From: Acidithiobacillus caldus ATCC 51756
Lineage (GTDB): Bacteria; Pseudomonadota; Gammaproteobacteria; Acidithiobacillales; Acidithiobacillaceae
Direction: 5' to 3'
NCBI RefSeq assembly: GCF_000175575.2
Contig: NZ_CP005986.1
Span: 62,001 to 126,000 of the forward strand
DNA length: 64,000 nucleotides
Shown here one piece after another: positions 21,259 through 30,857 of the stretch. Below the pieces are notes generated by a model, which was not told the origin of the DNA, did not search any database, and worked only from the letters and a program-made list of their open reading frames with translations. Position 1 is the first letter of the stretch; each line of letters begins with the position of its first letter. A program made the position numbers and the translations under genes.

Positions 21259-21969
21259 ATGACGACCACAGGCAAGCGCTTTCGGGCGAAGGTCGTCCTG
21301 CTGGATCTGGACGGCACCCTCGTGGACACCGCGCCGGATCTCGCTGCCGCAGCCAATCACGTGCTGCGCAAGCTCGGCAGAGAGCCGGCCGAGATGCCGG
21401 TGATTCGCGGCTTCATCGGCAATGGCGTGCGCGAGTTGATGCGGCGCGCCCTGTGTCTCACCAGGGCTCCCACGGAGGCGGAGTTGGACGAAGCCATGGT
21501 GGACTTCGGCGCCTACTACGCCGCCCACCTCACGGACCACAGCCGCGTTTACCCGGGGGTCGCCGAGACGCTGGAGGCCCTCAAGGCCCAGGATCGGCGC
21601 ATCGTCTGCATTACCAACAAGGCCGGTACCTTCACCGAGCCGCTTCTGGATACCCTCGGTCTGCGCCCACACTTCGATCTCGTGCTTTCGGGCGATAGCC
21701 TGCCGCGCAAGAAGCCCGATCCCTTGCCGCTGACCCACGCCGCGACGCATTTTGGGGTGCAGCCGGAAACCGCCCTGCTGGTGGGCGACTCGCGCAACGA
21801 CACCGAGGCCGCCCGGGCCGCGGGAATGCCCGTGGCCTGCGTCACCTACGGTTACCACGGCGACCAGCCCGTGGCCGAACTGCAGCCGGACGCCCTTCTG
21901 GACAACCTTCTCGAGTTGTTGGATATTCTCGAGCACACGCCGCACGAGCGGGATTTCGGAAAGGTCTGA
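21259..21969 (+). CDS. cbbZ: Phosphoglycolate phosphatase
   Basis: The 236-residue HAD hydrolase dephosphorylates 2-phosphoglycolate, the by-product of RuBisCO oxygenation. HAD motif I is LLDLDGTLVDTAPDL, motif II lies in CITNKAG, and motifs III/IV are KKPDPLPL and VGDSRNDTEAARAAG. Placement between Calvin genes and trpE fits the cbbZ role; general Gph activity cannot be separated by sequence. Its 3' end carries GGAAAGG, which could serve the short leader ORF that follows. Confidence 0.92.
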   Translation: MTTTGKRFRAKVVLLDLDGTLVDTAPDLAAAANHVLRKLGREPAEMPVIRGFIGNGVRELMRRALCLTRAPTEAELDEAMVDFGAYYAAHLTDHSRVYPGVAETLEALKAQDRRIVCITNKAGTFTEPLLDTLGLRPHFDLVLSGDSLPRKKPDPLPLTHAATHFGVQPETALLVGDSRNDTEAARAAGMPVACVTYGYHGDQPVAELQPDALLDNLLELLDILEHTPHERDFGKV

Positions 21970-21970
21970 C

Positions 21971-22024
21971 GTGTACGGGAAGCGCACAGTTCACACCGCG
22001 ATGGGACGATGGTGCTGCCACTGA
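21971..22024 (+). CDS. Candidate 17-residue leader peptide before trpE
   Basis: A GTG-initiated frame of 17 codons begins six bases after GGAAAGG and ends TGA at 22022. It reads MYGKRTVHTAMGRWCCH, with one Trp codon near the end placed inside the 5' arm of the hairpin that follows. This resembles the layout of an amino-acid biosynthesis leader, although a single Trp is weak compared with the paired Trp of classic trpL. Expression is unproven. Confidence 0.35.
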   Translation: MYGKRTVHTAMGRWCCH

Positions 22025-22054
22025 CCGGCAGTGTCGTCCGTCCATTCCCCATCG
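21999..22054 (+). promoter_or_regulatory. Nested stem-loop in the trpE leader
   Basis: Three nested complementary pairs are present: CGATGGG (21999) with CCCATCG (22048), GACGA (22005) with TCGTC (22034), and CTGCC (22015) with GGCAG (22027). The structure ends immediately before GAGGTG, the trpE ribosome site, and has no U-tract, so it is better suited to controlling translation or RNA stability than to intrinsic termination. It overlaps the short leader ORF. Base pairing was judged by eye. Confidence 0.45.
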
Positions 22055-22067
22055 TGAGGTGTAACCC

Positions 22068-23576
22068 GTGATTTCCGAAGCCCATTTTCATGCCTTGGCA
22101 AAGCAAGGCTACAATCGCATCCCCTTGGTCCGCGAGGTTTTGGCCGACCTCGACACGCCCTTGTCGGCCTATCTCAAGGTCGTTCGCGGTCCCTTCGCGT
22201 ATCTCTTTGAATCCGTCCAGGGCGGTGAGCAGTGGGGGCGTTATTCCATCATCGGGCTACCGGCCCGGGAACGCCTGGAGGTGCGGGCGGGCGAGGTCCA
22301 GGTCTTTGTGGACGATACCCTCACGGAGCGTTGCCGTCCCGCGGACCCACTGGACTGGATCCGCGCCTATCACCGACGCTTTCGTGTGCCCCAGAGCGAG
22401 GATGTGGCGGGACGCTTTGCGGGTGGGCTGGTGGGCTATTTTGGCTTTGATACGGTGCGTTACATCGAGCCGCGCCTGCAGCGCGCGCCGCGTCTGCCCG
22501 ATCCCCTGGATTTGCCGGAGATACAGCTGCTGGTAGCGCAGGAGCTGCTGGTTTTCGATAACTTGCGTGGCACCCTGCGCATCATCGTCCACGCCGATCC
22601 CGCCGAGCGCCACGCCTACGAGCGTGCCCGAGCGCGGGTGGAGGCCCTCGCCGCCACGCTTCGCGATGGCTCGCCCGTGCCGCCGGCCGCGGCAACGCGC
22701 AAGGGACGTGTGCGTGAGGAGGATTATCGCGCGAGCTTCAGTCGGGAGGCCTACATGGCCGCCGTCGAGCGAATCCGTGACTACATTGCCGCGGGGGACG
22801 TGATGCAGGTGGTGCCCTCGCAGCGCCTCAGCATCCCGCTGGAGGCCCATCCCCTCGACCTTTACCGCGCCCTGCGCGGCGTCAATCCCTCGCCCTACCT
22901 TTTTTACCTGGATCTGGGCAAGACCCAGCTGGTGGGCTCCTCTCCGGAGATCCTCGTCCGGGTGGAGGATGGTCGAGTGACCGTGCGCCCCATCGCGGGC
23001 ACCCGCCCCCGAGGCGTTGATCTGGAGCACGATCTCGCCCTGGAGCAGGAACTGCTGGCGGATGCCAAGGAGCGGGCCGAGCACCTCATGCTCATCGATC
23101 TGGCTCGCAACGATGTGGGGAGGATTGCCGAGGTGGGCAGCGTTCACCTGGACGAATCCTTCGGTATCGAACGCTATTCCCACGTCATGCACATCGTCTC
23201 GGAGGTTTCGGGGCGCCTGCGTCCGGGTTTGGACGCCATGGACGCCCTGCGCGCCGCCTTCCCCGCCGGGACCGTCTCCGGTGCCCCCAAAATCCGCGCC
23301 ATGGAGATCATCCGTGAGCTGGAGCCCGTGTCCCGCGGGATTTACGCCGGTGCCGTGGGTTACTGGGGCTTCAACGGCAATCTGGACACCTGCATCGCCA
23401 TCCGCACCGGGGTGGTACAGGATGGCGAGCTGCACATCCAGGCCGGTGGTGGCATCGTCGCCGATTCCAAACCTGCCAGCGAGTGGGAGGAGACCATGAA
23501 CAAGCGCCGCGCCATGTTCCGCGCCGTCGATCTGGCGGAGAATGGTCTGGATCCTGAGGTGGGGGTGCAGCGATGA
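22068..23576 (+). CDS. trpE: Anthranilate synthase component I
   Basis: The 502-residue chorismate-using subunit makes anthranilate with TrpG. The C-terminal chorismate-binding domain is clear ([77 protein letters not shown]). The feedback motif LLES is not obvious at the N-terminus, where [18 protein letters not shown] stands instead. The start is a GTG with GAGGTG upstream. It overlaps trpG by four bases (ATGA). Confidence 0.96.
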
Positions 23577-24160
23577 TCCTCATGATCGACAACTACGACA
23601 GCTTCACCTACAACCTGGTGCAGTACTTTGGTGAGTTGGGGGAACGGCTGGAGGTCGTGCGCAACGACGCCCTCAGCATTGCCGATATCGAGGCCATGCA
23701 GCCCGAGCGCATCTGCATCTCACCGGGTCCCTGCACCCCGGCGCAGGCCGGTATCTCTCTGGAAGTCATCCGCCATTTTGCCGGACGACTCCCCATCCTC
23801 GGGGTCTGTCTTGGCCACCAGGCCATCGGCGAAGCCTTTGGCGGACGCGTCGTCCGCGCGCCGGAGGTGGTGCACGGCAAGACCTCGCCCATCTTCCACG
23901 ACGATAAGGGCATCTTTGCCGGTCTGCCCAAACCCTTCACGGCAACCCGTTATCACTCCCTCATCGTCGCCCGGGACGATCTCCCGAGCGAGCTCGAGGT
24001 CACCGCCTGGACCGAGGATGGACTCATCATGGGCCTGCGCCACCGCCGCTTTGCCGTGGAGGGGGTGCAGTTCCATCCGGAGTCCATTCTCAGCGAATGC
24101 GGCAAGGAACTCCTCGCCCACTTCTGCAAGGTCCGGGAGGCAAGCCGTGCAGGCGCGTGA
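23573..24160 (+). CDS. trpG: Anthranilate synthase glutamine amidotransferase
   Basis: The 195-residue class I amidotransferase supplies ammonia to TrpE. The triad is visible: Cys in GVCLGHQAI, and His/Glu in VQFHPESIL; the N-terminal [20 protein letters not shown] is the family hallmark. In many bacteria the same subunit also serves PabB in folate synthesis. It is coupled to trpE by a four-base overlap and overlaps the start of trpD by 14 bases. Confidence 0.96.
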
Positions 24161-30494: not shown

Positions 30495-30857
30495 GGGGGC
30501 GATCGGTTTCGACACAGGTCGCGAAGCCTTCGGTGCGTGCAGAGCTGCGGTTTGCTCTTAAAACTGGTCGCAACGCTATAATTGCCAACGACAGCAATTA
30601 CGCCCTCGCTGCTTAAGCAGTGAGCCCTCCGCCCGGGTTCGTCCGCGGACGCGGTGGCCGCAAGGCCTGCGGGGGGTCGACAAACGCGGAATCGCGCTGG
30701 GTCTGTCCGCTGACCCAGCGTTAAAACAAGCGGACTCGCATTCTGGGAATCCTGTCCGTCGGAGTCCCGGAGTGTCAAAGCAAAAAGACGGACTACGCAT
30801 GTAGAACCGGGGGTCTAGGTCCTGTGGACGCGGGTTCGATTCCCGCCGCCTCCACCA
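30495..30857 (+). ncRNA. ssrA: Transfer-messenger RNA (tmRNA)
   Basis: The 5' end GGGGGCG pairs with CGCCTCC before the 3' CCA, forming the acceptor stem with one G-U pair. The T-arm GCGGGTTCGATTCCCGC is intact. The resume codon is GCC at 30584 and the tag reads ANDSNYALAA, stopping at TAA (30614-30616); this matches the tag I recall for Acidithiobacillus. Length of 363 nt is normal. With SmpB it frees stalled ribosomes and tags the unfinished protein. Open reading frames on either strand here are not genes. Confidence 0.96.

Follow-up and report, generated by a model that had tools for sequence, protein, structure and literature searches.

Tryptophan attenuation is the textbook example of gene control sensed by the ribosome, and it was worked out on transcription terminators of Escherichia coli. 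There, the trpL leader encodes a short peptide with Trp near its C-terminus, and the position of the ribosome on this leader selects the RNA fold and controls trpE. In Bacillus subtilis, the rtpLP leader of the anti-TRAP gene rtpA likewise contains Trp codons, and the position of the leader ribosome governs the next ribosome site. Comparative surveys of attenuation include those of Vitreschak (2004) and Merino (2008). Control by tryptophan leader peptides is known, and so are translational attenuators based on a leader. In attenuators of the erm type, a leader ribosome that has stalled is believed to disrupt the inhibitory stem-loop in front of the cotranscribed gene (PMC5118997). In regard to the class studied here, there is work on attenuation of trpE and trpGDC in Pseudomonas putida (Olekhnovich and Gussin 2001, cited in PMC8297930).

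The window, as we call the whole analysed stretch of 64,000 nucleotides from Acidithiobacillus caldus ATCC 51756, carries a Calvin-cycle/glycolysis gene set (transketolase, GAPDH, PGK, pyruvate kinase, aldolase, rpe, gph) followed by trpE, trpG and trpD. A leader frame of 17 codons, ending with the residues Arg-Trp-Cys-Cys-His, lies between cbbZ (gph) and trpE, and its GTG is separated from the cbbZ stop codon (21967-21969) by a single nucleotide in the sequence TGA-C-GTG (Table 1). The first-pass annotation of this DNA had described such a frame with its ribosome site and a nested stem adjoining the ribosome site of trpE, and both the sequence and the folds bear this out. The cbb3 cluster of A. 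ferrooxidans, trpE and trpG included, is one transcription unit according to RT-PCR (PMC2942843); as far as the available part of that article extends, the linkage of Calvin-cycle and trp genes is noted there without a control element, and the strings 'attenuat' and 'terminator' are absent from it. A second frame of 20 codons (22009-22071, + strand) overlaps the leader frame in the window, starting at the ATG within CGATGG and ending with a stop codon that overlaps the trpE GTG. By eye, the same layout is present in L003, and other family members stop early or lose this frame.

Table 1. Features of the cbbZ-trpE region, with positions of the window
Feature	Position	Strand	Basis
cbbZ/gph, phosphoglycolate phosphatase, last gene 5' of the leader	21259..21969	+	NCBIfam TIGR01449 and NF009695 above cut-off
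GGAAAGG, likely ribosome site of the leader frame, within the cbbZ end	21958..21964	+	sequence; inference
Leader frame, GTG 21971 to TGA 22022-22024, MYGKRTVHTAMGRWCCH*	21971..22024	+	sequence; counterpart MHLGTTGYFAMGRWRCH in L003, the sole other genome of the genus among those examined
Outer helix, 5' arm	21997..22005	+	folds; hidden under a modelled ribosome at the Trp codon, exposed when the ribosome is at the stop
Middle helix	22006-22008/22039-22041	+	folds
CGA-TGG (Arg-Trp), conserved putative sensor dicodon, Trp four codons before the stop	22007..22012	+	family and class comparison
Inner helix 22009-22019/22027-22037, leader stop codon in the loop	22009..22037	+	folds
Outer helix, 3' arm, ending at the trpE ribosome site	22048..22056	+	folds
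trpE ribosome site GAGGTG	22056..22061	+	GAGG invariant, rest near-invariant in 25 family sequences
trpE, anthranilate synthase component I, GTG start at 22068	22068..23576	+	TIGR00564 above cut-off
trpG, anthranilate synthase component II, overlapping the trpE end	23573..24160	+	TIGR00566 above cut-off

Conservation of the leader was followed in 29 genomes of the Acidithiobacillaceae, 28 of which gave a match, with trpE orthologues accepted at 70% identity or more. After removal of duplicates (e.g., L007 and L034 from Igneacidithiobacillus, L017 and L035 from Acidithiobacillus concretivorus, L014 and L036 from A. ferrianus) and addition of named contigs, the set comprised 25 distinct leader sequences of 120 nt. 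Three incomplete genomes were left out, two that gave a paralogue only (G013, G014) and one that gave no match (G019). The hexamer CGATGG is invariant in all 25 distinct trpE leaders and lies within a short frame in every one of them, for instance in MRKTLRWERRWRCC, MRKLERAGKRWRRC, MTGNFIYVGKGRWRRS and MKPLGYATKAWRWRGC, with the Trp codon exactly four codons before the stop in 24 of the 25. Conservation of the small frame and of its Trp codon in relatives had been proposed earlier as a check; both are kept throughout the family and recur across the class, and this comparison of sequences indicates that the leader frame is not there by chance.

In regard to the wider distribution, trpE was searched in 167 genomes spread over the class. 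At a threshold of E 1e-140 this gave 125 matches, one of them from the window's genome, and the other 124 upstream regions formed the class set. A short frame ending in RW followed by zero to six residues, located 25-150 nt before trpE, was present in 58 of these 124 regions, compared with a mean of 3.3 and a maximum of 7 in shuffled sequences, 1 in the reverse complement and 5 in a segment placed inside gph. Frame variants with KW, SW or GW were found at 2, 4 and 2 class loci, which is near the shuffle level (1.4, 2.1 and 2.1, respectively). The Arg codon before Trp was CGA in 46 of the 58 leaders, while CGA makes up 5.1% of the Arg codons in 136 trpE sequences and is used in none of the 11 Arg-Trp pairs found there. 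Furthermore, among hexamers in the 180 nt preceding trpE, CGATGG was the most widespread (62 of 124 regions), and in 56 of its 69 occurrences the CGA-TGG frame had an upstream start and a stop within nine codons, compared with 1 and 7 in the other frames. The frame opened by the start codon inside the hexamer (ATG GCG...) was rejected as the conserved unit, with 7 of 69 occurrences so framed versus 56 for CGA-TGG.

The residues flanking RW vary widely and the N-terminus of the leader peptide is not conserved, and the distance from the leader stop to trpE is mostly 45-65 nt across the class motif loci. Participation of CGATGG itself in a hairpin is real but modest class-wide, with 4.2 versus 3.4 of its 6 bases paired downstream (49 loci). 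The gene upstream of trpE is gph at 91 class loci, and the leader was found at none of the 29 loci with a gap shorter than 40 nt, at one of the three with a gap of 40-79 nt, and at 54 of the 59 with a gap of 80 nt or more, so that the gph-trpE spacer exists where the leader exists. To judge from these comparisons, a Trp-sensing leader device appears to recur in many related bacterial families.

The predicted nested hairpin of the window adjoins or overlaps the trpE ribosome site. Its folding is mildly unusual in comparison with shuffled sequences (z -2.57 for 21950-22090 and z -1.51 for 21970-22072), and since folding sets the leader only slightly apart from them, the case rests on the comparison among genomes. 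No intrinsic terminator, meaning a hairpin with a U tract, was found between leader and trpE in the window, and among 51 class motif loci, 9 had a terminator-like hairpin with a T tract and 42 had none; an intrinsic terminator was consequently rejected as the control element of the leader. The first-pass annotation had considered classic attenuation unsupported in view of the single Trp codon and the lack of a U-tract, and this view has held, with no terminator in the window and none conserved. Rfam gave no relevant attenuator match in the leader up to E 5, and its two matches outside the leader were at chance level, far below the gathering score. No T-box or other known riboswitch aptamer was found in the window, where the only match both at the Rfam gathering level and in ARAGORN was a tmRNA gene (30495-30857, + strand, tag peptide ANDSNYALAA). 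Leaders of the A. ferrooxidans type (e.g., L008, L013, L036) have the inner hairpin followed by CTTCTTTTC, a weak terminator-like tail that is not present in the window's genus. In the deltaproteobacterial loci L111 and L112, trpE is preceded by a hairpin containing CCATGG and then an extended run of T, an arrangement that resembles an intrinsic terminator.

The relation between the leader and the ribosome site it precedes was examined by a swap test, where the leader segment from 25 nt before to 30 nt after the leader start was paired with the trpE ribosome site of its own locus or with those of other loci. The computed mean was -15.4 kcal/mol for own and -9.7 kcal/mol for swapped sites (51 class loci, start codon omitted, 0/5000 permutations), compared with -11.4 and -11.1 for a gph segment of the same loci used as a control (833/5000 permutations). 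The pairing is species-specific in this sense, and a smaller signal at the non-motif loci (-12.1 vs. -10.5, 0/5000 permutations) may come from unrecognised leaders. Twenty of the 51 motif loci and 12 of the 73 non-motif loci were in the best 5% relative to shuffled leaders, and long complements between leader and ribosome site are clear in L145, L184, L188 and L192. At several class loci (L124, L126, L145, L192) the anti-ribosome-site sequence includes the start codon of the leader itself, and a closed fold would therefore also block leader initiation; in such loci, initiation on the leader may be needed before the trpE site is transcribed.

Within the family, an RNAalifold consensus over all sequences was set aside, as it gave no long helix and only two short ones at -2.5 kcal/mol, due to arms that change between clades and are misaligned by MAFFT. 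The core helices of a 14-sequence Acidithiobacillus subset are 100% and 94% paired and almost invariant, without two-sided changes, and the count of pairs is therefore uninformative. The covarying pairs that had been suggested as a check are seen between families, as covariation of the leader 5' end with the trpE ribosome site, and only weakly column by column inside the family.

Occlusion of the ribosome site was expressed as the computed energy needed to open trpE positions -18 to +6, with the leader RNA either free or covered by a ribosome, which was modelled crudely as a fixed 30-nt footprint block, placed at the leader start or so that either the Trp codon or the stop codon occupied the A site. 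Over 50 class loci, the opening energy was 14.3 kcal/mol for free RNA, 8.0 with the ribosome at the start, 11.5 at Trp, 12.7 at the stop, and 6.8 with ribosomes at the start and at Trp; the shuffled counterparts required 7.5-8.2 in all ribosome states (8.2 when free), and the 73 class trpE loci without the motif 9.3 versus 8.1 in shuffles. A rerun with slightly different limits gave 14.6, 11.5 and 12.8 (free, Trp and stop) versus 8.1, 7.9 and 7.8. The energy drop at Trp was 3.1 in the 50 loci versus 0.2 in shuffles, which is a partial relief (11.5 compared with a baseline of 8) that exceeds the relief at the stop by only 1.2-1.4 kcal/mol, and the modelled opening of the trpE site is no smaller with a ribosome at the leader start than with one at Trp. 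For the 25 family sequences, extended by 40 nt upstream, the values were 15.9 free, 11.4 at Trp and 13.4 at the stop, with 10.8, 10.4 and 10.1 in shuffles, and L009, L012, L013, L018 and L023 were exceptions with little or no relief.

The window's own leader showed no relief in the family run (12.1, 13.2 and 12.4 for free, Trp and stop). When folded from 21971 (start range 21966-21976), which assumes that ribosomes cover the end of cbbZ, it required about 17.5 kcal/mol free, 6.9 at Trp and 17.0 at the stop, with the footprint at Trp covering the outer 5' arm and the footprint at the stop leaving that arm free to pair. When it was folded from 21931, with 40 nt of cbbZ RNA included, the values became 12.7, 13.2 and 13.1 and the Trp effect was gone. 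Such dependence on leaving the cbbZ RNA out of the fold is a real weakness of the model for the window species. Over the class and family loci, the site is on average occluded in silico and is freed more by a ribosome at the sensor codon than by one at the stop, as would be expected of a translational attenuator. The earlier idea that the ribosome position might alter access to the trpE start, in place of classic attenuation, agrees with this opening-energy model and with the lack of a conserved terminator.

Betaproteobacterial-type loci (L074, L076, L080, L081, L083, L087, L089, L091, L094) have another kind of leader, with ...AWPW[RC] in it, which sits farther from trpE (about 60-130 nt) and mostly lacks the same occlusion of the ribosome site. 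Burkholderiales-type AWPWR leaders were considered as the same device and rejected, as their opening energy was 12.4 versus 10.7 in shuffles, with no relief at Trp (13 loci, among which L097 is probably spurious).

On the strength of the modelled folds and the comparison, the leader is probably a translational trp attenuator that works without a terminator. Folding of the leader RNA would sequester the trpE ribosome site, and the short leader peptide would be translated through this structure. When charged Trp-tRNA is scarce, a ribosome would wait at CGA-UGG, cover the outer 5' arm and free the trpE ribosome site. When tryptophan is plentiful, the ribosome would cover the last four codons up to the stop and then leave; as the outer helix of the window can already re-form in the model with a ribosome at the stop, little translation of trpE would then be expected. 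If a second ribosome were queued at the leader start, the fold would be opened further. The calculations show the conserved peptide and dicodon, the occlusion, the species-specific pairing and the modelled relief, from which we infer stalling in vivo, the direction of the regulation and the size of its effect, as well as separate control of the trp part within a carbon-fixation operon. An in vivo assay with the his leader of Salmonella identified CGA as a slow Arg codon (PMC4046918). Conceivably, CGA sensitises the codon that follows. It is also conceivable, though we put this forward tentatively, that the leader is an ancestral gammaproteobacterial translational switch, in which a slow CGA in the P site makes a single Trp codon hypersensitive, and stalled and queued ribosomes keep the anti-ribosome-site sequence of the leader off trpE.

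Several other explanations have to be considered. Transcription attenuators are the classical setting of Trp leader peptides, and the leader could act on a terminator, either intrinsic or dependent on Rho, located between cbbZ and trpE, as in the classical trpL or TnaC systems; the nine motif loci with a terminator-like hairpin and the T-rich stretch after the inner hairpin of A. ferrooxidans-type leaders would fit such a role. However, the window leader has no terminator-like site and neither do 42 of the 51 class loci, the usual 45-65 nt between leader stop and trpE is short for alternative hairpins, and the pairing is directed at the ribosome site itself. We regard transcription attenuation here as unlikely, and terminator-based attenuation is not supported as a general mechanism by the sequences compared. 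Arrest by the nascent peptide, with Arg-Trp-Arg near the C-terminus holding the ribosome and possibly sensing free tryptophan, as TnaC does, instead of empty Trp-tRNA, would account for the conserved part being the C-terminal Arg-Trp at a short and, in the family, constant spacing to the stop. Yet the variable surroundings of RW and the unconserved N-terminus speak against it, the synonymous codon CGA is conserved although a mechanism based on the peptide only would have no need of it, and arrest induced by tryptophan would turn a biosynthetic gene on under excess of its product, which makes this explanation quite improbable.

The short distance between cbbZ and the leader start in the window, together with the full opening of the trpE site by a ribosome at the leader start in the class model, would also be compatible with translational coupling independent of tryptophan, where the leader frame only relays ribosomes from cbbZ to trpE through the fold. 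Such coupling predicts neither a near-terminal Trp codon in so many families nor CGA in front of it, and we consider it very unlikely. A chance frame in an ordinary structured spacer could be argued from the leader-only folding z-score of just -1.5, but it is hardly credible in view of a frame kept in 25 of 25 family sequences and enriched in the class (58 of 124), and it is contradicted also by the CGA codon bias and by the pairing in the swap test.

If the terminator-free translational attenuator is real, autotrophs could set their tryptophan enzymes separately while sharing one transcript with the Calvin-cycle genes. The results suggest that this translation-level form of attenuation is widespread where trpE follows gph, and that a conserved slow Arg codon before Trp may be the reason why one Trp codon can suffice. 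In the full-text literature searched, with many subscription papers outside its scope, no description was found of an Arg-Trp leader, or of a leader occluding the ribosome site, before trpE in Gammaproteobacteria. Likewise, we did not find described the combination of a CGA Arg-Trp dicodon, a gph-trpE spacer, a leader anti-ribosome-site sequence and the lack of a conserved terminator in many families of one class, and we claim no priority for it.

Compared with the known systems, the leader resembles trpL of E. coli in encoding a short peptide with Trp near its C-terminus before trpE and in the predicted choice between RNA folds by the position of the ribosome. It differs from trpL in that its Trp codons usually number one or two, that CGA precedes Trp, that neither a terminator nor a U tract is conserved, that it sits inside an operon shortly after gph, and that its fold occludes the ribosome site. 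It shares with rtpLP a leader with Trp codons and a predicted control at the level of translation through the position of the ribosome. In rtpLP, however, masking is brought about by a ribosome located at the leader stop, whereas here it would be due to RNA pairing and the waiting ribosome would free the site, and the gene and the lineage are different. In erm-type attenuators the signal is a macrolide, whereas here it would be charged Trp-tRNA. Unlike the present leader, TrpL of Campylobacter jejuni was proposed to act by transcription termination, with the RNA ending just after the stop codon (PMC3847290). The attenuation of P. putida likewise concerns trpE in a gammaproteobacterium; among the systems studied so far it is probably the closest one, and it may represent a member of the leader group.
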